Of a stretch of DNA of 34,347 nucleotides, positions 8,119 through 30,100 are shown piece by piece. The translations under genes and the position numbers were made by a program. Position 1 is the first letter of the stretch, and every line of letters begins with the position of its first letter. The stretch spans positions 1-34,347 of the IMG/VR virus record IMGVR_UViG_3300023115_000059; one strand, written 5' to 3'. The notes under the pieces were generated by a model. The model saw nothing but the letters and a program-made list of their open reading frames with translations, searched no databases and was not told the DNA's origin. Source of the stretch: a virus.

Positions 8119-8473
8119 TAGTTTCTCCAGTAATTCCAAATAAGTGCGATGTCTTAGAAGACAGACCGCTAACTGCCTTAGTTAAATCTTTAACTAAACG
8201 AGTGTGATAATCATTTAGTGCTTCATCTTCGGCAATACGACTCTCTGCCCATTGTTGTAGCATGTCTATTGTCACGTTTTCAATTCCAAAAAAACTACTC
8301 GGTCTAGCCCATTTTAACGGAACTAACATTGCGTCCGATTTCGTGCGACCTGTTTCCGTATCAGTAACAGTGACAACGACATCTAATTCAGTCACAACAT
8401 TAACTAGACCATTCTTATCTGGCTTGCGATTGTACTTGGCATCAAGAACAGCGGTTGTTACTTCAATACTCAC
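8111..8473 (-). CDS. Hypothetical protein downstream of tail fibre, 120 aa
   Basis: GTG start at 8473 overlaps the tail-fibre TGA as GTGA, so it is coupled to the fibre. The N-terminal half is beta-rich (EVTTAVLDAKYN, NVVTELDVVVTVTDTETGR) and the C-terminal half is helical (IDMLQQWAESRIAEDEALND, TRLVKDLTKAVSGLSSK). Small proteins of this layout (a TDTETGR-type strand then helices) often follow phage tail fibres and may be fibre assembly or attachment factors. The family is not recognised with certainty. Confidence 0.7.
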   Translation of the reverse strand: MSIEVTTAVLDAKYNRKPDKNGLVNVVTELDVVVTVTDTETGRTKSDAMLVPLKWARPSSFFGIENVTIDMLQQWAESRIAEDEALNDYHTRLVKDLTKAVSGLSSKTSHLFGITGETNV

Positions 8474-10608
8474 GACAACGTAGCCTCCAAAGCGGCAAGT
8501 CTGGCTTCAACTTCTTGTAAAGCCTTAGTTAAAACCGCAGTCAATGCCAAGCCATCAATAGCACCATTCTCACCCTGATACGGAGAATCAGGTTTCAAAT
8601 TCATATCAGTAGCCTCGGGAATCACTTCACCAACTTCTTCAGCAATAAAGCCGATAGTCCCACGCTTCCAGTTCTGATACATAAAGCATGGTGATTCAGG
8701 GGTATTATTACAGTCACGACCACACAAATGAACCGCCTCTTCACCATCGTACTGATCTTCTCCAGCGGCAACTTTGATTGCGTTCAAGCGGTTTAGCGCT
8801 GACTGACGACGCTCAGTATCCATATCACGTACAAGCCTGTCTTGTTTTTTAAAGCGATAAGACACTGGTCGCAACTGCTTTATCAAATCAGTAGCAGTAG
8901 TGTCATATGTAACATTTACAGCAGAAGACAAAGGTTTTGCTACACCCCAAGATTCAATATCTTGTTTCATGCGGCGGGATGACTGATTGGAAATGTATGC
9001 GGCAACAGTTATATAACCACTATCGTTGTAGTTTCTGGCATACCAAATACCTGATGCTGGTCGCCACTGTCCAGTATGTGTATTACTAGCGTATGATTGA
9101 AAACCAATACCACTATTCTGAGAACTCTGACCTTGCAAGGATACTGAGTCCCAACCAGTACTTCCTGAATACTTGTACGCTCTCAATTGCCCACCGTTTG
9201 TGTACACATGCTTAGCGCTATACGAACGCACCCAACTGGTGTCTTGCATATACCAGCCACCGTTGTAAGACTGGCTGTACCAACCCGTTGCATTAAAAGT
9301 ACGAAACCAGCCTTGCTCTAGGTAAACGCCAGCGGTATCAAAGTAGCAGACGCGATTGTTCGTGTGAATACCAATCTGGACATTACCACCGCCAACCAAA
9401 TACAAAGGCTGACTAGTAGTCCACGAGCAGACAGTTGGCCGTGAGTAATACTCGCCCATTGAAATACCGTAGGACGTATATGACTCTGGAACGATTGCCA
9501 TTCGATACTTGTAGTCGGCGTAGATTTTGTGAACGCCGTATGACCCTCCGCTTCCGCCCGCTATCCTCAATGGAGAGCCAGAACCCAACGACGTCGTTCC
9601 TGCGATGTAAACACCACCTCTGAAATCAACCGTGTTGGAGTTATACGGATACGAGAACACGACCTCGTTTGACCCTCCGCTTCTGCGGAAAAATGAGATG
9701 CGGTCTGCGCTTTCACCTGTAGCGTAGGCGGGCGTGCCGTCGCCGTTGTAGAAGATGCCACCGCCGTACGAGTTTGATTGTCCAGCAAACACTGCGCCAG
9801 TTCCTTGACTGCTTCCCTGCGCTCTGATTTCTGCAAGCCCGGAGTCCGAGGAATGTTCGACCTCCAACATCGTGGATGTTCCTGTGATGTAAAGGTTGTT
9901 CACAAATCGACCGTCGCCGTTGACATCCAACTTGTACGACGGTGTGGTGTCACCAATACCGACATTGCCAGACGAATTAACAACTAACCGAGCCTGAGTG
10001 CCATCATGAAGTTCAATCGTGCCACCTGTGAGATAAGTAGTAAAGTTAGCGTTACCAAAACGACTAGGACCGCCATCGTTCCGTAGTGTCATTGTGTTTA
10101 TTCCACCGTCAGCAGAACGGGTTGAGCCGTTAACGAAGAACACCGCCTTTGGTCCTGTGTCATTATCTGCTCGAAGGAAATAGTTGTAGTCACCAGACCC
10201 ACCACTGTTCTCAATGTCGATAGCAGGTTGCGATAAAGCGGTGCCGCTCCGTGAGATGTTGACGTGTGTCATCCCAACTTGATTCATAATGTCGTCGTAT
10301 GTCAGTCCACTTGCACCGCTGAACGTTCCACCGTTGTTGTACTGAACTTGACCGTCACTACCGCCGGGAGACACCGTAATTGTTCCAGTTGCTACATCAA
10401 TCCATGACGTACCGTCATACAACTGTAATGTTGTGGTAGACTTATTGTAAGCAATCATGCCCGATGTCAACGACCGTGCAAGAGCACTATCCCTATCCGA
10501 AGCGTTATCAAAACGCATAACAGACTGACTCATCAAGTAAGCATTGGCATCAAAACCACGGACGGGTTCATTGTCCGCCCAATATTTTACACCTTCAACG
10601 ATTGCCAT
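8470..10608 (-). CDS. Tail fibre with C-terminal S74 intramolecular chaperone
   Basis: This 712-aa protein begins with a short attachment segment (KYWADNEPVRGFDANAY, LYDGTSWIDVATG), then a long Gly/Ser/Tyr-rich beta region with repeats such as SGNVGIGDTTPSYKLDVNG, typical of trimeric fibres. The last 170 residues are a peptidase_S74 domain: S543 and K548 in QSSRRMKQDI form the self-cleavage dyad, followed by LRPVSYRFKK, GTIGFIAEEVGEVIP and a C-terminal coiled coil (LTKALQEVEARLAALEATL). Cleavage before S543 is expected after folding. The chaperone contains an insert with three cysteines (HLCGRDCNNTPESPC). AAGGAA lies 5 bases before the ATG. It is the most probable receptor-binding protein. 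Confidence 0.9.
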   Translation of the reverse strand: MAIVEGVKYWADNEPVRGFDANAYLMSQSVMRFDNASDRDSALARSLTSGMIAYNKSTTTLQLYDGTSWIDVATGTITVSPGGSDGQVQYNNGGTFSGASGLTYDDIMNQVGMTHVNISRSGTALSQPAIDIENSGGSGDYNYFLRADNDTGPKAVFFVNGSTRSADGGINTMTLRNDGGPSRFGNANFTTYLTGGTIELHDGTQARLVVNSSGNVGIGDTTPSYKLDVNGDGRFVNNLYITGTSTMLEVEHSSDSGLAEIRAQGSSQGTGAVFAGQSNSYGGGIFYNGDGTPAYATGESADRISFFRRSGGSNEVVFSYPYNSNTVDFRGGVYIAGTTSLGSGSPLRIAGGSGGSYGVHKIYADYKYRMAIVPESYTSYGISMGEYYSRPTVCSWTTSQPLYLVGGGNVQIGIHTNNRVCYFDTAGVYLEQGWFRTFNATGWYSQSYNGGWYMQDTSWVRSYSAKHVYTNGGQLRAYKYSGSTGWDSVSLQGQSSQNSGIGFQSYASNTHTGQWRPASGIWYARNYNDSGYITVAAYISNQSSRRMKQDIESWGVAKPLSSAVNVTYDTTATDLIKQLRPVSYRFKKQDRLVRDMDTERRQSALNRLNAIKVAAGEDQYDGEEAVHLCGRDCNNTPESPCFMYQNWKRGTIGFIAEEVGEVIPEATDMNLKPDSPYQGENGAIDGLALTAVLTKALQEVEARLAALEATLS

Positions 10609-10629: not shown

Positions 10630-11007
10630 ATGCGTATTCTGTCTACCATTCTACTACTAATACCATTCTTCAACGAACTACCACACGAAGAAACTTATCT
10701 TTGTCCACAGGCTGTACGTCTTGCCGCAAGTGTCGGATGGGTAAACGAAGACCTTGAAATAATTGACCAAATCATGTGGGCTGAAAGCCGATGCCATGTT
10801 GATGTTGTTTCTTCGACAGGCGATTACGGTTTGTTTCAATTAAACTGGTCAGCAAATAGTCGATGGTTGAGTAACGCCGGATATGACCGTGACAATTTGT
10901 TGGTGTCTTCAAATAATGCTCGGGCGGCTTTGATGCTGTCACATTATGCTGAAATACAATACGGTTGTAAGTTCCAGCCGTGGTACATGTCAGGCACATG
11001 GTGTTAA
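10630..11007 (+). CDS. Secreted lysozyme-like / SLT transglycosylase
   Basis: The 125-aa product has a short hydrophobic N-terminus (MRILSTILLLIPFF) suited to export, then a lysozyme-like domain. The catalytic Glu is E52 in IMWAESRC, followed by GDYGLFQLN (residues 64-72), the ES...GLxQIN pattern of SLT/goose-type transglycosylases and Rpf-like actinobacterial enzymes. C25, C55 and a C-terminal pair (GCK, WC) could form two disulfides. It is the only plus-strand gene in the late region. Its stop overlaps the stop of the convergent fibre gene in TTAA (11004-11007). It could act during entry, as a second lysin, or as a separately expressed moron gene. It is small for the family but has all the key motifs. 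Confidence 0.82.
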   Translation: MRILSTILLLIPFFNELPHEETYLCPQAVRLAASVGWVNEDLEIIDQIMWAESRCHVDVVSSTGDYGLFQLNWSANSRWLSNAGYDRDNLLVSSNNARAALMLSHYAEIQYGCKFQPWYMSGTWC

Positions 11008-12233
11008 GCCCAATCGCCCAAAAGTTGATACAAAGTTATTGTTCCGCCAGTGTAATTAATACTATTCCCACCACTATAATCACCATTTTCAACACGAAAC
11101 TGTATGGCGGCTGGGTTATCTCCAGAAGCAACTAAAGTAAAAACACCGGCAAGGTGAAAATTCGCAATTGTATTAGAACCCATAAGTGTTACATTACTAC
11201 CTCTCATAATGTAAGCACTTGAAGCCGCCACTGCGCTTGAGTTGTCTCCTGTTATTGTTGACCGAGTAACATGAACGGCATAAAGAGCATTAGTCCCTAT
11301 CCGCAATCTAGGATATCCAGCAGTATCTGTATCAACTAATGCGATACCATCCGGGTCACTTGTTTCAGTAAGAGTCGGATATTCTACGTATTCAGCATAC
11401 GTTACTGTTCCTCCTGAATAACTGTATGTTGCAACAGGAAACATTGATCTACGACCCAATGCGTAATCAGCAATTTGTTCTGTGTCAACAGCATCATTAT
11501 CAATCTTTGCGTTTGTCACAGCATTGGCCGATAAATGTACTGAGTCAATTGACCCATCAACATAATGTTCAGAATCAATTGACTCATCAGCAATCTTGTC
11601 GCCGTTCACAACGTCAGCCCCTAAATGTACTGTGTCAATTGACCCGTCAACATAATGATCAGAATCAATCGAATTGTCAGCAATCTTGTCGCCGTTCACA
11701 GCATCCGCATTAATTTTATCTGTCGTCACCGCATTGTCAGCAAGTTCAGTAGTGCCAACATCACCCGCCTGAAGGCTCGTGTCAATCCATTCCAACCCAT
11801 CTGTTTCAGCAGAGTTAGCACTCAACACATAACCATTAACGCCAACACTTTTAACAACCGCATTAGTACCATCATGGACAACAAGATCGCCCTTAGCCGA
11901 CTGCAAATTCACATAACTGTTTGCTTGATCAATAGTTGACGCATCCAAAACATGCTCAACAATTTCACCAAGATCATGATCAACTGCTGACGTGTTATCG
12001 TAACCACGTGTCTGAATATTAAACTGATTAGTTACACGACTGCTAACAAGAATCTTTTCTTCATCAGCCGTATTACGACCCAACACAACAACAAATGGAC
12101 CGCTTGCACCATCAGGAAATGTTGAGCCGTCAGTTACAGTAAAACTACTTGGAGTGCCAGAAATCGGCGCAGTAATTGCAGTTGCTTGCGCCCCGCCAGT
12201 AAAAGATTTACGTTCAAAAGATCCTGCCGCCAT
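11004..12233 (-). CDS. Fibre-like virion protein with 30-aa repeats
   Basis: The 409-aa product has three parts. Residues 20-95 form a beta module (FTVTDGSTFPDG, EEKILVSSRVTNQ, RGYDNTSAVDHDLGEIVEH) also seen in the capsid protein and adaptor. Residues about 100-240 are a stalk with tandem units (GDKIADNSIDSDHYVDGSID, then VHLGADVV) typical of phage fibres. The C-terminal 150 residues look like a C1q/TNF-type jelly-roll head ending IQFRVENGDYSG, INYTGGTITLYQLLGDWA. The ATG has GGAG upstream, 3 bases after the nozzle-like gene stop. It is a likely head or tail fibre; no enzymatic motif is seen. Confidence 0.8.
   Translation of the reverse strand: MAAGSFERKSFTGGAQATAITAPISGTPSSFTVTDGSTFPDGASGPFVVVLGRNTADEEKILVSSRVTNQFNIQTRGYDNTSAVDHDLGEIVEHVLDASTIDQANSYVNLQSAKGDLVVHDGTNAVVKSVGVNGYVLSANSAETDGLEWIDTSLQAGDVGTTELADNAVTTDKINADAVNGDKIADNSIDSDHYVDGSIDTVHLGADVVNGDKIADESIDSEHYVDGSIDSVHLSANAVTNAKIDNDAVDTEQIADYALGRRSMFPVATYSYSGGTVTYAEYVEYPTLTETSDPDGIALVDTDTAGYPRLRIGTNALYAVHVTRSTITGDNSSAVAASSAYIMRGSNVTLMGSNTIANFHLAGVFTLVASGDNPAAIQFRVENGDYSGGNSINYTGGTITLYQLLGDWA
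11533..11712 (-). repeat. Two 90-bp tandem repeats in fibre stalk
   Basis: Nearly identical 90-bp units start at 11533 and 11623 (each with AAATGTACTG-GTCAATTGACCC and ending near CAATCTTGTCGCCGTTCACA). They encode successive 30-residue stalk units. Partial, more diverged copies flank them on both sides. Confidence 0.8.
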
Positions 12234-12236
12234 TGT

Positions 12237-14261
12237 TTACTCCACACTAATTAATTGTACTGTTAACACTAATTCAAGCCATTCACCTGCATCATCCCAT
12301 TTATTTGGCTCAACACTAAAATTATCTATCCGCACTCTATTGTAATGCACACCCTCGGTGTACGTAAAGACCGTACGATTACGCCACAAATCACGCACAA
12401 AATTTATTTCATCCCACGGATCATACGAAACCAACGCACCCTCAGTGCCACCAACCAAAGTTGTGCGACCAATGATTAACGGTATCTGCCATTGTTGGGT
12501 GGAAGGCGCAATAGGGTATGCCGACATTTTCCATTGACGCACAACAGGTGTACTTGTGCCGGGACCATTTAATGTCAACTTCAGATGAGCACGATTAAAC
12601 GTTGTGCCTTGTGGTGTTAACACCAATTCTTTTGCACCGGGAACTGCAACAGTACGAGAACCAATAACTGTCCCTGTTTCGCTATCAATTACTTCGCATA
12701 CAACAGACTCGCCTGTGTTGAGAGCATCAAATCGTACTTCGACTCGTCCTAATGATTTGTTTTCCGCTGTACCAAAATATATGTCGCCAGTAGTTAGATA
12801 GCCTGTTGTTACAAAGTCGCTTGTAATGTACCGCAATTGTCCATCTGAACCTAATACCCATGTGAATGGTTCGGTAAATGTGTCTGGTTTGCCTGCGATG
12901 TCAAACGTTGTGTCAACAAATGAACCGATGTATAACGATGCAACAGTTGTCAAGTCGTCGCTAATAAGGTCTGTTGCGTATGCCGGTGTGAGTGTGTCAG
13001 TAAAATCTTCAAGCGAAATACGTCCGAGTTGAAGTTTGCCGTCTGGCCTATCCCACCCAAACCATATAAACTTTTGGTAGGCGTATGCTGTTGTTACTGG
13101 CAGATCAGTTTCGATGAGCCCGCCGTATGTGAGTGAGCCGTCGCCTGACAACGTAGCAAATCGTAGTCCTCGGTTGCCCCACAAAATTGCGTTACCAGCG
13201 TATCCAAAACCGCCGTACAGTTTTTCGTCTGATGGGAATACGGTTGCTTGTGAACCAATAGCAAGGTTGCCTGTTGAGGTAACAGTCATTGCAAACATTG
13301 ATGATTCGTCTGCGCCGTAACCGCCTACATAAATCCGTGAACCAATATTAAATGCTGTTGTCCATTGGAATTTTTCGTCGATGTGTGTGTAAAGCGCTGT
13401 TGCAATTACGTTTGTTGCGTCGGTTGTAATTTCATAGATTGTGTTTCTAAAACCACATAGCAACGTGTTGCCAACAATTTTAAATAGGGTTGGTGGAGGT
13501 CCGTATCCAAGATCACCAGTTTTTTGTACTAACGTTTCATGTTGTTTGCTTGTTAATACATCGTTTTGAATGATGCCGTAACACAGTTTTTGTTTGTTGT
13601 TATAAAAATCAATACCAATAATTGTGTCGTTGCGATCTTCTACAACAGAATAAAACTGGTTGTGTATGGTTTCAAAATTTGTGACGTATCCGTTACCAGA
13701 ATTGCAAATAATGTGCGCACCAAACGACTCGGATCCATTTGTAGTGTAAGGAACTGCCGCACCATTTTTGTCAAGAATCATTGTCTCAAAACCGTTAGAC
13801 ACAATTAGATAGTCGTTAATGTCGTAACGATATTTATGAATCCATGATCCCAACAATTGGTATCCGGTGCTAGACAGCGGCTGGTATTTGTCTGCTAGCA
13901 GAGGTTGCAATGATAATGCGTTAGGTTCCCACGGATTTAAACCTTCTGAATAATCGTAACGGCGACCAAGCACATCGTCATCAAGATCAGCAATAGGTTG
14001 CCCCATGCCATATGACCAGTCGTAACGGTAACGCCACCAGCCACCATTAGGATTAAACAACTGGTCAGATGGTTCTCCTGATGACACTACTCCTTCACGA
14101 AATGACGGCAACCCTGTATGACGGTAACCGTTCAAATCCATTGCATAGATACGTCCATCTAACGCAACAGAGTTCGCAGGCACCGACGTAAATGTCGCAC
14201 CTGTCCCCGCATAAAACGGGGTAGGTGGACTAAACGTTTGTGTTACCTGCGTGCCTGCCAT
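12237..14261 (-). CDS. Beta-propeller-like tail (nozzle) protein
   Basis: The start is taken as the ATG at 14261, which overlaps the adaptor's TAA by one base (TAATG); an in-frame TTG two codons earlier is less likely. The 674-aa product is almost all beta, with repeated blade-like segments (IYAMDLNGYRHTG, YLIVSNGFETMILD, TLLCGFRNTIYEITTD, IYVGGYGADESSMFAM, ILWGNRGLRFATLSGDG, FIWFGWDRPDGKLQLG). The end is a jelly-roll-like domain (VRIDNFSVEPNKWDD). By fold style and place directly after the adaptor, it fits the nozzle proteins of podoviruses (P22 gp10 or T7 gp12 type). Sequence alone does not prove this; it could be a tail tip or host-range protein. Confidence 0.7.
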   Translation of the reverse strand: MAGTQVTQTFSPPTPFYAGTGATFTSVPANSVALDGRIYAMDLNGYRHTGLPSFREGVVSSGEPSDQLFNPNGGWWRYRYDWSYGMGQPIADLDDDVLGRRYDYSEGLNPWEPNALSLQPLLADKYQPLSSTGYQLLGSWIHKYRYDINDYLIVSNGFETMILDKNGAAVPYTTNGSESFGAHIICNSGNGYVTNFETIHNQFYSVVEDRNDTIIGIDFYNNKQKLCYGIIQNDVLTSKQHETLVQKTGDLGYGPPPTLFKIVGNTLLCGFRNTIYEITTDATNVIATALYTHIDEKFQWTTAFNIGSRIYVGGYGADESSMFAMTVTSTGNLAIGSQATVFPSDEKLYGGFGYAGNAILWGNRGLRFATLSGDGSLTYGGLIETDLPVTTAYAYQKFIWFGWDRPDGKLQLGRISLEDFTDTLTPAYATDLISDDLTTVASLYIGSFVDTTFDIAGKPDTFTEPFTWVLGSDGQLRYITSDFVTTGYLTTGDIYFGTAENKSLGRVEVRFDALNTGESVVCEVIDSETGTVIGSRTVAVPGAKELVLTPQGTTFNRAHLKLTLNGPGTSTPVVRQWKMSAYPIAPSTQQWQIPLIIGRTTLVGGTEGALVSYDPWDEINFVRDLWRNRTVFTYTEGVHYNRVRIDNFSVEPNKWDDAGEWLELVLTVQLISVE

Positions 14262-15175
14262 TACCAAGCCACCATCGGATACTTGGTACGCAATTTCATA
14301 ATTTCTGCACTATAACGACGCAAATAATTTGCACGCATAGTTTGTGCTAACTCCAAACCACGGTTGACAGCCACATCACCAGCACGCCGTGACTCGTCAG
14401 CAGGTTGACGACTAGCACGATTGTTCTCATCGTCGGATAACAACCGCACTTTAATTCCTAACGCCAACAAATCAAGCATTGAACGCTGTAAACCAACATC
14501 TGCTACAAGATCATCAGACTGCGCCAATGTATCATCAACAATAAACGGATACGCAATTTGAGCATGTACCTGACCGTTACGGCTAACACCATTATGTGTC
14601 ACCAACCGAATCAACAAACCGCTTGCGGACGCACCTGACCAAACAGACGGATCACCCCGTTGCAACCTAAACTTTAATGACGGCCACGAAGAAGAATCAG
14701 ATTCTTCCCAATTACGACGCACACGAATAACACCAATAGCGTCAGCCAACGATGACGGCAACTCTACTGTTTCGTCCTCTGTGTCAACTGTCCATTCGTA
14801 ATCAACAACAGAAAACAAATCAGGTTCCCACGAAGTAATCTCATCAATCAACGCATCGTAAGCCTCAAACCGTGTAAACCGTGGATTAACTACAATCTCA
14901 TCCCCAGCAGAATGTGCCTCAACATTAGAATCCTGCCAGCCACGCAACACCTCAACAGTTTTAGTTGACGTATCAACAGACAACACCCGCATCAACTCAA
15001 GGCCAACTGCAAGCACAGACCCCAAACGATAAGCAGGTGTTAACTCGTACGACAACGTGAGCGTCGTCCCAGACGTGCTTACATTGTTCGCTAAAGTATT
15101 TAACTCATTACGTACAGACGAATTAAGTTGTCGAATAGTACGATCTAAAAGTGATTCAACAGTTGTTCTTGCCAT
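14261..15175 (-). CDS. Head-tail adaptor protein
   Basis: Starting at the ATG at 15175 with GGGGAGAG upstream, the product is 304 aa (MARTTVESLLDRTIRQL). Residues 33-98 hold a beta module (GTTLTLSYELTPAYRLG, LELMRVLSVDTSTKTVEVLR, GWQDSNVEAHSAGDEIVV) that is shared with the capsid protein and fibre. The rest is mixed, with helices that include FEAYDALIDEITSWEPDLFS and a C-terminal basic helix (TMRANYLRRYSAEIMKLRTK). Its size and place after the capsid gene and before the nozzle-like gene match adaptor or tail-tube-A proteins that dock under the portal in short-tailed phages. Assignment is by context and fold style. Confidence 0.65.
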   Translation of the reverse strand: MARTTVESLLDRTIRQLNSSVRNELNTLANNVSTSGTTLTLSYELTPAYRLGSVLAVGLELMRVLSVDTSTKTVEVLRGWQDSNVEAHSAGDEIVVNPRFTRFEAYDALIDEITSWEPDLFSVVDYEWTVDTEDETVELPSSLADAIGVIRVRRNWEESDSSSWPSLKFRLQRGDPSVWSGASASGLLIRLVTHNGVSRNGQVHAQIAYPFIVDDTLAQSDDLVADVGLQRSMLDLLALGIKVRLLSDDENNRASRQPADESRRAGDVAVNRGLELAQTMRANYLRRYSAEIMKLRTKYPMVAW

Positions 15176-15186
15176 GATCTCTCCCC

Positions 15187-15223
15187 TTGTGTGGAGGAGG
15201 GAACAACGTCCCCTCCCCCACAA
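15187..15223. other. Strong hairpin between capsid and adaptor genes
   Basis: TTGTG (15187-15191) pairs with CACAA (15219-15223), and GG plus GGAGGG inside pairs with CCCTCC plus CC, allowing single-base bulges at 15192 and 15195. This gives about 13 pairs around a 9-base loop. On the minus-strand message it lies just upstream of the adaptor's GGGGAGAG. No U-tract follows in that direction, so attenuation, mRNA end protection or control of adaptor translation are all possible. Confidence 0.5.
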
Positions 15224-15252
15224 CTATTGTGTTTTACTAGGGGTTAACTAGA

Positions 15253-16407
15253 TCAGACAAGATCCGAAGGCAACGCCGCAGTGTTATCAAGCCCAGTCCA
15301 ACGTGCCATGTGACGCTGACCCTTGACTTCAAAACCGCCTTCAGCGACAAACATGTAGTTGTCCTTGTCGTCGGTCTTAGCAAGTGGCTGCATAACCATT
15401 GGCTGGAACACACGGTAAATCACGTTTTCACGGTTCAAACCGAATGCGTCAGTTGCCTTACAGTAACGGTTGCGAACAAGCAGAACGTCACCAAACTCGG
15501 TGATGACGCTAGTTGCACGACGACGACCACGACGCTCGTCTTCAACAGTTACAGTTTGAATGCGCTCTGCGCCAGCAAGGTTGTTGAGTGCCGCAAAGTT
15601 TGCAGGGTTTGACACAATAGCGGTGAACTGTCCACCTGCGTCGTATGCAACCTGCTGTACACGCTCAACTTCTTCAACCGTCAACCAGTCACCTGATGCG
15701 GCTCCGTTGTATACGTTGCTCGTAATAAACTGTGACACGCCGCCAGTTGCACGAGTTGTGCCTGACTGGTACTTAACACCGTAAAGAAGTGCCTGCTCCA
15801 TGTTGACACCTTCAGCCAACATAACCTTACGAGTCTGACGTGCCAACTCGTTAGCAATACCATACTTCGGAATACGCTGTGCAGTACGACTGATCTGAAT
15901 CTTTGAAGTCCAAATCTGCGTGTAGTTGCTGTACTTGGTACGACCAGTGAACTGTTCGTCACCAATTGAACCTTCAGAAAGAAGCGTACCAATACCAATA
16001 ACTTCTGCGTTAATCAAGTGCGTTGCGGCAGTGGTGCCTGCGGCTCCACGAACAACAGTCAACGTGTCGCCGCTAATTGATGTAACAGTCATAACTTCAT
16101 CGTCAATACGAATCGCGTCACCTGCGGCAAAACGCTCGCCTGAACCTGCGGCAACGTCAACCTCAGTTTCGGTTGCATCAAGTGCTTCACCGGCTGTTGT
16201 CCGTGGCGTAAGGAACTCGTCCTCTAGCCAGTAAAACTCGGTGTTGTCAACAGGCTGACGAGGAACAACAGGGAATCCGTCGCTGTTTACACCGCCAAGC
16301 ATTGGCAGATCGTCAGGGTTAAGCATGTAGATCAACTCATCAATGTTGATCTTTGTTTCGACCGTTAGGTCGTTAGAGTAAATTGGGTTAGCCAACTGTT
16401 CAGCCAT
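15253..16407 (-). CDS. Major capsid protein, HK97 fold (SU10/DUF5309-like)
   Basis: The 384-aa product shows features of the SU10/DUF5309 capsid group: an N-terminal LIYMLNPDDLPMLGG and FYWLEDEFLTPRT, a long central domain (TKYSNYTQIWTSKIQISRTA, LAEGVNMEQALLYG), and a C-terminal beta domain (ADAFGLNRENV-like strand, VEGGFEVKGQRHMARWTGL-like end). Residues about 77-130 are an inserted beta module (ETEVDVAAGSGERFAAGDAI, DDEVMTVTSISGDTLTVVRG, AAGTTAATH), probably a surface or E-loop insertion. GGAGA lies 7 bases before the ATG. The scaffold and a 94-aa protein precede it, and it ends at a strong hairpin, as expected for the most abundant late protein. Confidence 0.88.
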   Translation of the reverse strand: MAEQLANPIYSNDLTVETKINIDELIYMLNPDDLPMLGGVNSDGFPVVPRQPVDNTEFYWLEDEFLTPRTTAGEALDATETEVDVAAGSGERFAAGDAIRIDDEVMTVTSISGDTLTVVRGAAGTTAATHLINAEVIGIGTLLSEGSIGDEQFTGRTKYSNYTQIWTSKIQISRTAQRIPKYGIANELARQTRKVMLAEGVNMEQALLYGVKYQSGTTRATGGVSQFITSNVYNGAASGDWLTVEEVERVQQVAYDAGGQFTAIVSNPANFAALNNLAGAERIQTVTVEDERRGRRRATSVITEFGDVLLVRNRYCKATDAFGLNRENVIYRVFQPMVMQPLAKTDDKDNYMFVAEGGFEVKGQRHMARWTGLDNTAALPSDLV

Positions 16408-20024: not shown

Positions 20025-21120
20025 TGCCGAACGCTCCTCTAAACATGTCGCTTGTCAAATCTGGTGGAGCCAGCGGGTCTGAACTTCGTATACTTCCCGG
20101 TCTCCAATTCATTAAATCCATTACTGCATTGTTTTGAGAAAATTCTTGAATTTCAATAGGTAACATTTGTTGCAACGCACGAATTGCATCTGCTTCCATA
20201 TTTGGTGTTTCACCTTCAACAGCAAACAAACGTTGTTCTTCCTCATCAAACTGTGTCACTGTGTCTAACACACGTTGCAACTCGCTTTCTGAAAGATTAC
20301 GACCCAACAACGACTGACTCACATTGTTAATCATCATTCCAGTATTAGGAGTGTTACGAGCAACCCACTTATTTAACTCGTCAAGATTGGCTTCAACTTT
20401 ACTTGTAAGTTGTGTAGCAATATTTGTGTCGTTAGATAAAACATCTCGCAACAACATGTCCCATGCCCGTTGCAGATACGGGCTAGACGGGTCTGTAATG
20501 GGTGCCGCCGTGCCGCCTGCCGCCCGAATGTAGCCACCTAACTGTAATTTGTTGACCATTTCTTTAAGGCCATCATCAGTCAAATAATACGGAAGTTGAC
20601 GGATTTCAGAAATACTCATGCCGTCAGCCATGATGTCCCAATATTGTTCGTCAACCCATTGACCTTCGTTGCTTGCAACAATCTGTCCGCCCACTGTTTC
20701 AAACGCTTCAGGCGAAAAAATATTGAAATTAACTGCATCAAGAATGTCTTGAATTTCGTAGTCTTGTGCCGCAACAGTGCCACTTGGAGTATTTACAAAA
20801 GCAACTTGGTTAGATATAAACCCCTCAAGCCCTGATTCAACAAATTGTTTATATTCGTCTAAGGCATCCATGAAGGATGCATTAGTGCGGATAATCCAAA
20901 CAAAATCTTGACCTGTAAATTTTTCCCAGTCGTATGTAATACCGGAAAGATTTGTTGTAGTAGCCGTATTGTTTGTTGTTGAAGTTGACGGTTGAACCGT
21001 AGTTGAAGTTGTTGTTCCAGTTGACTGCGGCGGCATTGACCACGTTGGTGGCATAGTTGTTTGTGTGGCACCAGTCGGTGGGTTCATGCCGGGAGGAGTA
21101 GGCGTGTTGCGAATAATCAT
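20017..21120 (-). CDS. Probable internal virion protein with Pro/Thr-rich N-terminus
   Basis: The first about 58 residues are a disordered Pro/Thr/Ser stretch (TPTPPGMNPPTGATQTTMPP and more), followed by a mainly helical domain (WIIRTNASFMDALDEYKQFV, WVDEQYWDIMADGMSISEIR, SQSLLGRNLSESELQRVLDT). The protein is 367 aa. Its ATG overlaps the giant gene's TGA (ATGA), so production is tied to the giant protein. No catalytic motif is evident. The LSESELQRVLDT helix is similar in style to the repeats in the next gene. Assignment is positional. Confidence 0.65.
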   Translation of the reverse strand: MIIRNTPTPPGMNPPTGATQTTMPPTWSMPPQSTGTTTSTTVQPSTSTTNNTATTTNLSGITYDWEKFTGQDFVWIIRTNASFMDALDEYKQFVESGLEGFISNQVAFVNTPSGTVAAQDYEIQDILDAVNFNIFSPEAFETVGGQIVASNEGQWVDEQYWDIMADGMSISEIRQLPYYLTDDGLKEMVNKLQLGGYIRAAGGTAAPITDPSSPYLQRAWDMLLRDVLSNDTNIATQLTSKVEANLDELNKWVARNTPNTGMMINNVSQSLLGRNLSESELQRVLDTVTQFDEEEQRLFAVEGETPNMEADAIRALQQMLPIEIQEFSQNNAVMDLMNWRPGSIRSSDPLAPPDLTSDMFRGAFGND

Positions 21121-24100
21121 CTGATACTACTTTCTGGCTTGTAAATTGATTTCCAAAGCATTTCAATATCTGGATTCATCAATGCCCATTCCTCACCAAA
21201 CGCTTCAAACCTGTCATCAAGTGCTTGGCGTTCCTGAGCAGACCTAGACGAATTACCTGTGATACGTGAACGACTAAACTCGTAAATATCAAACTCTTTA
21301 CTTAGCGAATAAATAGCACCAAAGTATTCAGATTCAATTGGATCAGTCATGTTTACAAGTTCACGGATGTCTGTGATTGTGCGTTGACGTGACGTGCGTC
21401 CGTTTGATTGTTCAAGCATTTCAGTGAACAACGGATGCGTAATTTTAAAATCTTTAATTTCTTGTTGGTGTTCTAACACCAAACCTGCTTGTTTGTTATC
21501 TCGACCAATCGCCGCTAATAGTTCTTTTTCATGGCGGTCAAGCATGTCGTAATATTCATACGCATCTGTTTTAAAAATCAACGCCTCATAAAACTCATCG
21601 CTGTCAATACGTTCACGCAAACCGTTACGCATAATTTGATTCCACACATACGCTGACGTTTCAATATCGTTGTTGTATCCTTGATTTGGAACAAACCATG
21701 ACACACCGTCTGGATACTCTGTCAACAAAGCATCATTGTTTGTGTAAAACTCCCATGCTTGTTCAGTTGCAACAATTGGTCCTGTAACTTGGCGTTCTGT
21801 TCCGGCAACAAGGAACGCTAATGGATTAATAATTCCATATTCTGTTGCTGTCGGGTTGTCCCGCACGTAACGGTAAATGCCTTCGTCGTATCCAAACGTG
21901 CTGACATAATCTCTGAACTGTTGAGTGAACACGTCTTTGATATCGACTTGCGAAATACTTGACAAAATTCCGTCATCGTCTTTTTGTCCAGCAACAGAAA
22001 GGTCAACTGTGCCGGGAACAGGGAACACTGTGTTGATGAAGAAGTTTGCAAACAAAGCGATGCGTGCGGCATTGCGTGCTTCATTCATAAAATCTTCTCG
22101 GTCTTTAGCAGTTGATCCTTCACCGGGGAACGAGCCGTCAGCAACAGCGTATTGTGCGAAGTTATTGAAGTTTGATGTTAAACCGATGCTCATATGTTCT
22201 GGATCAACTAGCCCGTACACACTGTTTACTAATTTTGCTAACACAGGTGGCAGAACTGTTTCGTGTAAGCGGCGGGTGGCTCCGAGGTCGCCCATAAGAT
22301 TGCGGCGTAATGGTTGCAACTCTGGGAAAATGTTTGACGCAAGTGCCATTGGGAATGCACCTAATGGCCCGAACTGTGGTTCGCCAACACGACTGTTGAA
22401 ACCGGGAAGCAAATTATCTAGACGTGATTTGCCCATCAAGTTGACATCAGTTTGATCCATTCCAAACAAACCTAAGAATGTTCCTACTGCTCGGTGTACA
22501 AGTCCTGATCCGGGTATAGCAATCCAGTAGTCACCGTTAGGATCTTCAGTAATGATGCCTGCTTCACGGAAACCGTTGAAAATTAATTGTGCTTGGTGAA
22601 TGTCTCGTAATAAGAAGTCGTCGGATTCGCCAAAAATTTTAACCCATCGTCTGTAGAAGTTTGATTCCGCATAGTGGAACGGCATCAATGTGTTTACTTT
22701 GTTTGCAAAAATTGTGCGTTCTCTTGGATCGTCAATGTAAGGGATGACGCTTGCAATTGCTTCTTCTGATGCAATGTCTTTTTGACGGCCAATATGGTTG
22801 CGTGCAGAAACAAGAATTTCTCCGAGTTCTTGCATGTCTTCTAATGTTCCGTCAATTGCGAAATCTACGTCGTTCACAATTTGGTATGCCGGTGTGCCAT
22901 CAAGTGTTTTGTTGCGCAAGATTCGTGTGATGTCTTCGGCACTTAACTGGCCTTGTTTGAGTTGCAACAAGTACACGTCGGGTACAGCGTCGAACAATTC
23001 ATCTAACACAAATACGCTTTGATGTTCGAGGTTGCTAAAGGCTTCAGTCAAAAAGTCTTTTGCTTTGTTGCTTGTAGCCGAGGTGCCATATCGAATGTTG
23101 CGTGATGCAATTGTGCTCATGCGTACATCCATAAACGAGTCAGCAATGCTCAACCGGACTGGTAACGCTGTTACAAATCCGTGCATTGCTTGCGGTGTAC
23201 GGCTTAAAGAATCAATTGCTGGTCCAAAAATTTCGCTAAACGTTTTTGAAATCATTCGTTCAATCAAATTTTTGTCATTAACAACTTCGGTAAGCCGACG
23301 GCCAATAACTACGCCGGGACGATCAACTGGGTCTACGTTATAGATGTCTCCTTGACGGCTGAACGTGTAACGAGTTAATGAACTGTCACTAGACGAGAAC
23401 ACTTCGTTTTGACCCATGACACGAGCGTCAACACTGCCAATCAATTGGCTGTTTGTAAGATCATCAAAGTTGTCTAGCAACACTGGTCCAACGGTTTGCC
23501 ATTGAATTTCTTTTGGTTTTGATACAACTTCTTCAGCAAAAAATTGTGGGTCACCAAGATTGATTGGATCGCCGTTTCTATCAAACAATTTGTCTGTGAA
23601 TTGGAACTCTGAATCTGGTGGAACTTCTTCTAGTTCGCCTGTCAAGGTGTTTTTGCGGAACACTTTGAGTTCTTCAAGTTCGTCTGGTGTGAGTGGCCCG
23701 TAGCCGCCTGAAGGTGCTACTTGGTATCGTGGCCGGTAACGAGTGTCTGTGCCTTTCATGATGACTTGTTCGACTCGTTCAACACCTTGTTGTGCGTATT
23801 CTAAAGTGGCACGTGGCCGTGATACACCTAATACTGCTCCGTTACCTTGAGGATAAACGGGTCCAGTTAAATTTTGCCATGAATCAACTGACGGAGTATC
23901 AAAATAAAATGTTTGTCCAACAGTTGTTGGTTTGTTAGAGCGAATAACGTTTCCTGCAATTGCTACTTCTGTTTGGTTACCTGTTCCTGCCCAACGTGGA
24001 ATCACTGTTGAATAGATGCTTGCTACTTTGCCTTCATCTAACACAGAACGACTGAGTACGTCTTGTACGAACAATGCTGTGCGAGGATCTGTTAATCCAA

Positions 24101-27100
24101 TTGTTGGGACAAACCAGTTTCCGGGCATGTTGTACAATTGTCCGGCATCAAACCTTCGGAAAATGTCGCCAACATATTCTGTGACAACTTGACGCAAATC
24201 ATCAATGTTGCTTGCGTCTAGCAAAAATCCTGTTGATTTGTGTGCTTCATAGTTGCCAAACAATTTTGTGACTACGTTGTCAACAATTTCGTCAAAATGA
24301 TCTTCAACGTTAGGGAATAGTTGACGTGAGGCTTCCCATTCTTTTGCTAAATATTTTGGTTCAACCAAAGAAACAGTAAACAAACGTTTTTGATACGGGT
24401 TGTAACTGTCCGCTACGTGATAACCGTTAAGTGTTTCAACCATAAACTCTGAACGGTTAATTTGATCAACGTTGTATGGTGCGTAATAATCTGCAAATAC
24501 TGCGTCAACCAAATTTTCTCGTGCCGCATCGTCGTATCCTGCATGAACTCTTCCGGTTTCTCTCGGCAAATATCCGTACACGCCACGTTCTGCACGACTA
24601 ATTGACGACGGGTCTAGCCATCCCATAGTTCCAAACGAACCAATTACTTTGTCACCAAATGTGTGCTCGGCTATTAAACCTGCAAGATAACGCTGATTAT
24701 AAATGCCTTGCTGTCCAGAAAGATTTCCGCCATCGACAAAAGGAATTGATGTTACTGGTGATTGATAGCCCGTAGTGTACAGTGCTGGTCGATCACCAAG
24801 AACGTTTTGCACTTGTGCTATAGACGCTTGCCTATACGGTCCAGCCGCAACTGTAGGCATGTCTTCTCCAAACACAGAAATTGTGTATGCCGCTCTTAAA
24901 GCATCTGTGTCTGACCCAGTTAATGTATCAGTTAACCAATCCTCCATTTTGGTATCAAATTGCTCAACTTGTAAATCGTCAATTAAACGATGAAATTTTG
25001 GATCAAGCAAAATTTCATTTAAATAATCAAATTCTTGATGTTTAAGATTACCGACAACCCAGTCAACAAAAGTATAATGACTGTCATTTCGACCCATCAA
25101 GAAACCGCCGCCGCCATTAAAGCCTTCTCTTATTTCTGATGTTAAATTGGTTGCCTCTTTTTGAAATTGTAAACGGACTAACTCTTTTAGTTCTGCGTTG
25201 TTTGTAGGACCGCTAGTTCTATTGATAACACCGTAATTTTTACTTGATCCACTGGGGCTGTATTTAACACGTGCGCCGCCTCCGAATGTCTGTGGAGTGG
25301 TTTGTGATGCAAAAATGCGCCACGCTTCTTTTCCGTATGTTTCTTCAAACGCATCCCAAATATCGTTAAACAATACGTCTACAATTTCTTCAGTACTCTG
25401 ATTTGCACCTTTTAATGTTGTAACATAATTTTCGTACTCATCTACAAGATCATCGAAGATTTCAAATGGTCCACCGTTTTCAGGTGTGCCTTGTAAGTAT
25501 CGTGCCAAAATAGGATTACGGCGTTCCAACGCATCATAAAAATTGGCTGAGTATGGAGTAACATTTGTTGTATGAAACTTAGATGCAATCTCATCAAGAC
25601 GATTTGTTAATGCAGACCGCAACATAGTAATGCGTTCTTCTGTTTGTGCATTAAAAAAGTTTTCAAAAAAGTCTAATTCAAGATTCCCAGTTGGTCCTAG
25701 AAGGTCTTGCATTTCCTCTAATGTTAAATCAAAATCTGCCAACATGCGTCTCAAAGAACCTTGACTGTCAAGAGCCGCATTAAAAAATGGGTCTGACAGC
25801 GGATTGTCAATAGTCAATTCAGAATCTGGTAAACGCCGCCACGTTCCCGGAGGCATAACTACTTCGATTACATTTGTTGATCCGAAAGCAATTTCGTGTT
25901 CCCGTCCTGATCCATTGCCTCGTGTCATACGGACAATAATGTCATCAGTCCCAAGCGCACTTTTGTCGGCAACGCTTACGCCGTCAGGTATATTACCAGT
26001 CGTATAATATGGTGCAGGCGCTTGATCAATAAGATCGTCCCAAGTTGGAGCATTGTTAAATTGGCTTGCAAGCGCATCAAAATCTAGTTCGTAAACAATG
26101 CCTTCAAGTCCACCTAATTGAGCATTGCGCCCAACAGTAATTGGAATACCAGCATAACTAAAAGTTTGTGTTTTCGATAGCGAAGTTGAAATAGCCCTAT
26201 AAGGATCGTTCCAATGATCTTGCGGTTGCAATGTCATAATAAGATTGCCGTTTTCAACACGAATAGCAGGTTCAACTGCAGCACCAAACGTCAACCCTGT
26301 GTTGATATTAGGTGTAGCACGATAAACAACTCGTGGTGCAACCTGTGGCATTTCTAAACCAGAACGTGGATTGACACCTACATTTAACGGATTGAGTGGA
26401 CCAGCAAGAGGTGCTTGATTCCACGGGTTTGCATCAATGTAATCAATGATGTCGTTACCAAAATACGGGCGGTTGTATGCAGTTAGATAGGCTGATTGCG
26501 CACGGTGAGACACAAGGAGATGCATAAAATCGTCTTGACTCAATGTGCCTGCATCCATAGCGGCTCTGATCTGATTGCTTAAACGAATGTTTTCGTACAG
26601 TTTGGCTTCTTCAGCCAACCAGTTCACTCCACCAATTTTACGGTTTTGTGCATCAATTACTGCGTTACGTAATTGCTGTTCTAGTTGTGGTGGGAGATCA
26701 GTAATGTCAGTAACAACTGCACCGCCGCTACTGTAATGAACCTGCCGGAACCACTCGTCAAGCACATCGGCGTATGCGCTATACACAGGATGTATGTTTT
26801 CTCCGTCAAGGCGAAGCCCGTCAATCAACACTCGTACCGAATCATCTTGCGCATAATTCATGTGGACAAACACTCGGTTTGATAACGGAGTATCTGCTGT
26901 AACTGACCGAACAACTTGTGTCCATAGCCCTTTATCCCAATCTGGATTAGATGGGAAATAACGTGGAATAGAATCTGTTAATACTTGACTCATTGTTGTG
27001 TCACGAACTAGAACACGTTGCAATTCGTCGTGTGCCGCAAACCCATACATCAATTCGTCTTGAACAGTAAACCGTTCAAACTCGTTGCCAACTTGCACCA

Positions 27101-30100
27101 ATGGTGTAGCCATAGCCTCACCATTTTCATAAACAGTAAGACCAACTGTTGATTGTCCAATTTCAGGTGCAAACATTGAACGGTTGTTAGCACTTAATGC
27201 TTCCATGATTGCTCGTGAATTACGATGCACATACTGTTGCGCTCCATACATCAAACGAGCATTTACTCCTCGTGCCGCTACACGTCGCCACGAATTTTCT
27301 TTACCAGCAAGCAAAGTTGTTGCCAATTCGTTTTTAACACTTAACTTGCCAAGCCTGCTTTTACCAACTAGCCCTGCCCCACGTTGCGCTAACTCTGGTG
27401 AAATACCATGCTCAAACACGCCACGAACCCAACGTTCCATTGTGTCAAGCGTAGAACCAACAACACTTCCGCCTATTGCTTCCCATTTATGAATTTGGTT
27501 ATTAACAAAACCTCGTCCACCTTTTTTAAGTATTGCTCTTTCAGCAGACGTTAACGCAGGTGCTAAACCGTATTTTGTTGCTTTTTCTGCTTTTTGAACA
27601 ACACGCAAATATTCGTTGTAGTTCTGTACTTTTCGTGCGCCGTAAGATGCAACAAGTTCAAGATTCGCTACACGGCTAAAGAATGCTAACAATTCTTCGC
27701 CGCCGTTACGAGGGATATATGCGCCACGCAACAAGACAAGTGGTCGCCAGTACTTCATTGCGTTCTGCTCAAGAATTTTTGCGCCATCAGCCAACATCAA
27801 ATGGTCGCCTAATGCCGCAATACGTTGCGCTCTAATAACCTCGCTAATATCAGGCACAACAAAATCAATTGCTTGATCAAGACCCAACACGCCACGAGGC
27901 ACAGTCTTGGTGCTATTAGTTACTGAACGTGCCTGATCAATACGGCCTAGCCCATACCCTGTAAACAGCCGGTCAAACTCGTCATACACTTGTCGTCCGG
28001 CTTTGCTTGACGTAAACCCTGTTGCATCAAACAATGTGTCATAAAAGGCTCGTAAAATTCTGGCTCGTGCCGCAACGTCACCAGTTGACATGATTTGATT
28101 CAACCATGTATTTGTAAATGATTTAGGCAAACCCATAACAGATCCGATTGAGTTGACTGCTCGGTCAATGCCTTCGCCTGTCACAAGGTTAACTGCTCCT
28201 CGGTTTGCCATAATTGAAACCGAGTCCATTAGTTTGCCAAGTGTGCCACCAGTAGCACGGTTTATCCAAGCAAATTTGCGTCCAACAATTTCTCCCGGCA
28301 AACCAATAAGACCAGTTGTTGCTTCTTCTGAAATGTCAAGAAGTCGTCCGTCAAGCAACAGTCCTTCAATGTTTTCTGGATTAAATGAAACGAGTTCTTC
28401 ACCTGATTCTGCCAACACATTATTGATATTGCGCATAGAAACAGGATCAGTAAAAGCGTTTCTGAAACCTAAAAGATTGTTTCGTATTGCGGCACGTACA
28501 CCGACGTTGCGTTGTGGAGCAAACATCAACATTCCGTGTGCTCCACGTTTCAAACCAATACCTTCACGCAACAAATGCGAATTAATTTCTTCACCAAAAA
28601 ATTCAATAACGTGGCTATTATCAAGTTCTTTTAATGGCTGATACGTTTTGCTCATGTAACCTTTAGCAACAGCCCAATCTCTAAACGGCTGATACACTTG
28701 TCGAAGATTCGGCACGACATCCGTGTAACGTCCAGCAACAGCGGCGTTAACAAAATCAGTGTGCGCTCGTCTTACTTGACGGTTAGTTTGAGCAACATGG
28801 ACAAAACGCTCTTTGCTAAATGTGCGACCACTTTCAACGCCGAGTCTTCTGAAACGAGAATACGAAACTGCTGGTGCAACTAGGTTTGCAGGATCAGCAA
28901 ACCATCTCCATGTAGCATCACCTAAACCAGAAACAAAACCATATGCTCTAGTTCCCGGTGTCAAAAACAAACCGTTAGCCAAGCCACGACCGGGACTGTA
29001 TTTGCCTTGTTGTAACAACCGAACAGCCTGTTGGAACTCAGGGGCTTGCAACAAGTTGTCAACTTCTACTGCAAGTTGATGATACTCTCTTGTGTTCCGC
29101 TCGTAAAACTGTTCAGCGTACGCTTGAGTTTGCATTAACTGAACGCTTTGTTGGTCAGCGTTACGAACACCTGCAAAGTATGCGGCAAGTTCATAAGGGT
29201 CAACGTTTTGACCAATAGAGTCAGCCAAATAATAAATATCTGAATGATTTAATAGTTCTTTGGCTTGAGCAATTGCGGCTGGGTTAAACAACTTTTCGCC
29301 GTCAGCGGCACGCCGCCAATTCTCAACATATTGGTTTTCGTTGCCAGTAACAGCGGCAATAACTGTTTCGCCAGTCATTGCGGCGATGTTGCCTCCGGCT
29401 AAACCAGCCAATGTTGCAAATGTAGCGGCGGCACCTAAACCTGCTAATGATGAACCAAACGTTGGACCAGCAAGTGCAACAGAAGCAACAGCAGTAGCGG
29501 CGGCGGCAGTCCAATATAAAGCGGCTTTCCATCCGTCAAACTGTGCAAGAGTACGATATCCACGATTAACTGTTTCGCCCGCAAACTCTAACCCTTTAAG
29601 AACGTTACCGCCTGCCCATGTTAGACCTTTGCCGACAACAGGAACACCGCCAACAAAATCACCAACTGCACCCAAACCTTTCATAAACCAGTTTTTGCCT
29701 GCGTGGTCTGCGGCTTCAAGGTCATATCCTGATTGCACAAGTGCTTTCTGTTCACTTGTTGTGAGTTGATCAAACACAACTCGTTGATCGCTTGGTGCTA
29801 AACGTTCAATAGCAGTACGCACTTGGTCTGTCGTTGTGTACTGTTCAATAACTGAAACACCATTAGCCAAATCAATAATGTCAATGTCTTCTTGAGCAAT
29901 TTGAAATAACAAATCTTCGTTCGCTTGCCAAAACTTTGGAGCGACTTCTCGCATCACATCAACTTTGTATTGGATCTCTCCGGCTTGATTAATAGTAGAT
30001 TCTAGATCGCTCCACGGATCGCCACTATTACTGCCGACAAGATCAGGGGTGTACCCTGACCTGCGATTGTTGTATTCACTTCCAATAAAATTCGGTTGAT

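Follow-up and report, generated by a model that had tools for sequence, protein, structure and literature searches.

A homologous domain of about 70 residues is common to the major capsid protein, the neck adaptor and the N-terminus of a tail fibre protein, all encoded on one stretch of viral DNA of 34,347 nucleotides, an IMG/VR virus record (hereafter the window). The window belongs to a short-tailed, podovirus-like phage that has one copy of this module each in shell, neck and fibre protein. We consider it fairly probable that one small six-stranded barrel is used here as a plug-in domain at three sites of the particle, with the separate roles proposed below. The module copies and the proteins that carry them are as follows.

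15253..16407, minus strand: major capsid protein of the SU10/DUF5309 family, 384 aa (Pfam SU10_MCP, E 3e-50; VP1 capsid 9in6, E 5.6e-22)
15985..16200, minus strand: capsid module, residues 70-141, insertion in the E-loop region (profile match 15994-16188; also based on the clean insertion relative to SU10/9ny2 and HTVC106P and on the allele swap relative to L007)
14261..15175, minus strand: neck adaptor (head-tail connector), 304 aa (Foldseek matches to neck/connector proteins; PHROG 7578)
14879..15106, minus strand: adaptor module, residues ~24-99 with the ATG at 15175 as codon 1, lying between predicted helices 1 and 2 (profile match 14885-15097)
12237..14267, minus strand: 676-aa protein between adaptor and fibre, putative nozzle by gene order only (PHROG 11667, function unknown)
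11004..12233, minus strand: tail fibre protein, 409 aa, consisting of the module and a D/T/K-rich repeat region (PHROG 23837, 38058 and 892)
11934..12182, minus strand: fibre module at the N-terminus, residues ~18-100 (profile match 11949-12176; AF2 model; top Foldseek match GP4 8jov_1)

The three segments quoted in a preliminary description of this DNA were all recovered, in the minus-strand ORFs 15253-16407, 14261-15175 and 11004-12233. Membership of the capsid protein in SU10_MCP is clear (171.8 bits over residues 14-373, against a cut-off of 24.1), and the PHROG matches of the fibre are tail-fibre and virion-structural families. The adaptor ORF as listed begins at an upstream TTG; the ATG at 15175 gives the length of 304 aa. 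A search of the window with the mixed profile located only the three module places, also when E values up to 10 were admitted, and the 676-aa protein gave no match in this search.

The similarity had originally been described as a motif, E-x-hydrophobic-x-V followed by RG and H. This motif is present in all three copies, but it is looser than claimed: neither RG nor H is invariant (the capsid of L007 reads GAS for RGA, and L002 and L003 have F for H), and the formula (V/I)-x-RG fails literally in the fibre, which reads IQTRG. A count over the ORFs of all six frames of the window gives exactly three occurrences, where shuffled sequences give 0.04. However, the pattern was composed after the matches were known, so the count is weak evidence when taken alone.

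Stronger evidence comes from profile comparisons. The capsid and adaptor modules match each other with hhalign at E 3e-9 (1.6e-12 with deeper alignments), and their profiles cross-match as well. The fibre copy requires more care. Compared directly with capsid and adaptor, a fibre family of three sequences gives a weak result, single-family profiles set only some fibres apart from shuffles, and the window fibre taken singly against the window capsid or adaptor is not significant. These last comparisons are what one would expect if a short RG...H motif had merely turned up by coincidence in unrelated beta-rich segments. Yet a capsid plus adaptor profile, built with the fibres held out, finds the family of 23 fibre modules at E 9.4e-11 with a score of 55.2, whereas 100 column-shuffled decoys peak at 13.7. 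When the fibre modules are scored singly, 13 out of 23 beat all 4600 shuffles; the window fibre module alone reaches 10.5 bits, a value equalled by one shuffle in 4600. Moreover, phrog_7578 and phrog_4406 each match the capsid, adaptor and fibre copies. Since the direct three-sequence comparison is weak, the homology of the fibre copy depends on the depth of its family and on structure, where adaptor and fibre strands agree in order and spacing and both models independently match the VP1 capsid. With both lines of evidence at hand, a coincidental match is hardly credible.

The suggestion that such segments are FCCH-like could not be upheld. E1_FCCH is absent from the Pfam matches of 21 modules at E <= 10, a literature search on FCCH in phages returned nothing relevant, and the name can at best describe an analogy of fold. 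The module has no Pfam or NCBIfam model of its own, and no Ig family occurs among its matches in either collection. As both databases leave the module unnamed, many virion segments listed as 'hypothetical' could be annotated with it. We also noted a weak match of the module profile to the head-tail joining protein gpFII of lambda (PDB 1k0h, residues 59-95, E 0.01); tail_join_FII from NCBIfam turns up for the module too (E 0.033).

Predicted structures agree with a common fold. In the AF2 model of the adaptor (pLDDT 82.8; 86-94 in the module) strands are placed at residues 24-28, 38-41, 54-57, 60-68, 73-77 and 93-96, with a helix at 102-115. The fibre model (pLDDT 85.6) has strands at 18-20, 30-33, 47-51, 59-67, 70-78 and 91-95 and a helix at 98-112. 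Strand order is thus identical and spacing nearly equal: six strands, then a helix. In both models the module is predicted to form a small six-stranded barrel. For the capsid copy the same fold is suggested by homology to 9in6, the capsid protein of Vibrio cholerae phage VP1. Foldseek connects both models to that capsid (fibre E 0.018, adaptor E 2.4e-4; about 12-14% identity), although superposition is poor when the alignments are taken as a whole (rmsd 7.6 and 17.9), probably since they extend into other parts. The fibre model ranks chain 1 of 8jov first in the PDB (TM 0.69, 29% identity) and the VP1 capsid second. This chain is a putative tail fibre of Ralstonia podophage GP4, with 439 aa of which 116 residues are modelled. 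A search of predicted viral structures with the fibre module returned the ends of numerous tail fibre proteins of phages. The adaptor model aligns with the hub of phage JBD30 over 86 columns at 3.1 A and 23% identity. It further matches the connector folds of KHP30 (2.7e-5), P1 (5.2e-4), DT57C, B2, GP4 and T4, which groups it with the head-tail adaptors (gp6/gp11/gp13-type neck proteins); with TM-scores of 0.2-0.4, these predicted similarities point to a fold class rather than a close match. Together with the profile homology, these models bear out the earlier expectation of a shared fold.

Searching solved structures with the mixed profile places the module in a wider family. The best matches are the JBD30 hub (8rk3, 5.5e-7) and a tail protein of phage Chi (8vjh, 1.4e-6), followed by the VP1 capsid (9in6, 0.0038) and residues 16-86 of the GP4 tail fibre (8jov, 0.0068). 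As single queries against the PDB, the adaptor and fibre sequences gave no matches, a fibre-only profile retrieved just weak unrelated PDB entries, and a direct search of phages with the window fibre N-terminus found no match. The module is widespread in phage virions and not special to the phage of the window. PMC11445458 describes domain VI of the JBD30 hub as a small beta-barrel of six strands, and by our own reading the matched hub residues 502-554 are this domain. JBD30 domain VI and the Chi tail-tip protein are homologous in sequence to the module, but their copies are located in a siphophage tail hub, whereas those of the window are in capsid, neck and fibre. The VP1 major capsid protein belongs to the same family as the window capsid and has the module at the same place; in GP4 the module is known only as the fibre copy, residues 16-86. 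A literature search on 9in6 and 8vjh found no VP1 paper, and Chi was named in one figure legend. One domain family thus joins the separately solved hubs of JBD30 and Chi, the fibre of GP4 and the capsid of VP1.

Comparable situations exist for other folds. Fraser and colleagues reportedly described promiscuous Ig-like domains in tailed phages, which occur in proteins of capsid, tail and fibre alike and are exchanged between phages. The module is like these in being an accessory beta domain at several virion sites, but it differs in fold and in being inserted in frame within the E-loop of the capsid protein. In its E-loop placement it rather resembles the beta domain that T4 gp23 and gp24 carry inserted in their capsid E-loop, where it is thought to brace subunits.

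In HK97-fold shells the E-loop lies on the outer face. According to a profile alignment to 9ny2/SU10 and a direct alignment to Pelagibacter phage HTVC106P, the window capsid module is a clean insertion of ~75 residues; it follows the N-arm and precedes the return strand that comes ahead of the P-domain. The domain order of the GP4 capsid (PMC9698820) identifies this insertion region as the E-loop. Because the E-loop of HK97-fold shells faces outside, outward display of the module is likely. The capsid proteins of SU10, 9ny2 and HTVC106P lack the module, and those of VP1, Sporosarcina phage Lietuvens, Fusobacterium phage phiRTG5 and Bacillus phage phi18-2 have it at the same spot. The E-loop module is a variable, not a defining, trait of SU10_MCP/DUF5309 capsids. 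In the adaptor, the subunit of the neck ring, the barrel separates helix 1 from helix 2 and most likely faces outward. The SU10 adaptor has a fibre-dock domain of its own (PMC9509320).

Full sets of capsid, adaptor and fibre copies were found in 10 of the 18 other records (G002, G003, G004, G005, G007, G008, G010, G011, G012 and G014; the partial contig of L007 is excluded from this count). Other combinations occur as well. G001 has capsid and adaptor copies without a fibre copy, G009 has the same two and its record ends there, and in G013 the adaptor and the fibre have copies but the capsid has none, as in Streptomyces phage FlowerPower. G015-G019 have a single copy each, some as a stand-alone protein of ~112 aa. 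Stand-alone proteins of this length (L021:7995-8330, L022:410-745, L026:5155-5490 and L034:4746-5081) hold little beyond a fibre-type module and a helix; perhaps they are fibre adaptors. We had initially taken the adaptor to be absent from G002 and G003, which proved wrong: in G002 it is a 517-aa ORF with an N-terminal extension, elsewhere in the contig, and G003 has a matching frame of 534 aa. The G002 extension (L066:54-690) fuses ~210 T/S/G-rich residues in frame ahead of the adaptor; the window has none.

Three copies in one genome might also mean that, within the window phage, one module was recently copied from gene to gene. The tree contradicts this: modules cluster by host protein and never by genome, with support of 100/99 for the fibre clade and 100/100 for the adaptor clade, and no phage was seen whose capsid copy is most closely related to the adaptor or fibre copy of the same genome. 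We reject recent intragenomic duplication on this basis and regard it as very improbable. Since the grouping follows the host protein, the copies are old residents: each position has a lineage of its own, and the three do not strictly occur together.

The capsid copy shows a remarkable local variability. The 17,231-base contig of L007 (L065) is 99.1% identical to the window overall. Outside the capsid module only 74 mismatches are counted in 17,009 bases (99.6% identical), whereas the 222 bases of the module contain 66 mismatches and 8 gap columns (66% nucleotide identity). At the protein level the module is 60% identical, against zero amino-acid changes in the flanks. The dense tract of differences covers capsid residues 69-144, with a thin silent tail to ~193 (window 15829-16222). 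Synonymous divergence in the capsid gene amounts to 0.53 in the module versus 0.09 elsewhere, and this local rise indicates recombinational replacement and not fast point mutation. Two further pairs behave similarly: in L028/L029 the pS of the capsid module is 0.55 versus 0.25, and G010/G014 are 70% identical at the capsid module against 95-98% at the adaptor module, though G010/G014 show mosaicism in other regions as well. A search for more strain-level capsid relatives returned only the one already known. The window and its relatives are metagenomic, so that a chimeric assembly can resemble an allele swap; a chimera could mimic one swap but is less likely for three pairs. The capsid module, then, behaves as an exchangeable cassette. 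Whole-domain allele exchange is unusual in a major capsid protein, which is among the most constrained proteins of the virion.

It might be argued that the module is only a stability brace that stiffens capsomer contacts in the E-loop, its variation being neutral drift. JBD30 domain VI has been described as stabilising the baseplate (PMC11445458), in line with such a role. L002 and L003 show another pattern, with equal pS (0.077 and 0.076) but seven nonsynonymous changes in the module versus one in the other ~310 codons (p 4e-5); this too is compatible with relaxed constraint, and rapid change of the capsid module could reflect relaxed constraint in a functionless insert. Nonetheless, a brace touching conserved neighbours should not change 40% of its residues while all flanking residues stay fixed, and neutral drift gives no local rise in synonymous divergence. 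We therefore hold the brace to be unlikely, though worth keeping in mind.

The preliminary description had further proposed a common surface or docking unit. The domain is indeed shared across shell, neck and fibre, but a single docking role is not what the data suggest. In its strictest form, the three copies would bind each other or a common partner, that is, homotypic docking of fibre to adaptor and of neck to shell. The exact set in ten other records would suit such an arrangement, as would the match of the fibre copy to the fibre N-terminus in the GP4 portal-tail complex. Against it stand the records in which copies lack each other (G001 without a fibre copy, G013 and FlowerPower without a capsid copy), the separateness of the three sequence lineages and the pair G010/G014, in which the capsid copy has been exchanged but those of adaptor and fibre have not. 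Free change of the capsid copy between near-identical phages is also ill-suited to a domain locked onto a fixed partner. Homotypic docking is thus quite improbable.

We favour the plug-in domain with roles that differ by site. In the shell the barrel would be a built-in decoration domain in the E-loop, most likely on the outer surface. There it tolerates variation that may be selected, and homologous recombination via the conserved capsid flanks would swap whole alleles. In the fibre, the N-terminal barrel and the following helix most likely hold the fibre to the tail; docking is likely here because the copy matches the N-terminal stretch of the GP4 fibre that is modelled in a solved portal-tail complex. 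If the fibre copy probably docks and the capsid copy acts as a variable surface cassette, this argues against one common docking role. A more far-reaching version, in which the capsid barrel is a selected exchangeable cassette for variable contacts and the barrels of shell, neck and fibre together give a shared low-affinity binding surface for putative partners, is speculative and in our judgement unlikely. If true, the variable alleles would, as in surface antigens, reflect contact of the shell with the host envelope, other particles or capsid-directed defence. With the capsid swap, it becomes testable what phage shells come into contact with.

Some additional observations concern the surroundings of the module-bearing genes. 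Residues ~150-260 of the fibre (window 11450-11790, minus strand) form a shaft with degenerate repeats of the type NAV-x-DKIAD-x-SIDSxHYVDGSI. A second fibre of 712 aa (window 8470-10608, minus strand) ends in a C-terminal Peptidase_S74 chaperone domain, and its N-terminal 80 residues are kept in L001, a phage without module-bearing fibre. Between the two fibre genes, on the opposite strand, lies a small SLT transglycosylase/lysozyme-like gene (window 10630-11007, plus strand; Pfam SLT, 1.2e-6). In G002 an ORF close to the fibre likewise lies on the opposite strand; it has a motif that looks similar and no Pfam match. Finally, a 2998-aa ORF without PHROG match (window 21117-30113, minus strand) perhaps encodes a giant virion protein or an ejected protein.
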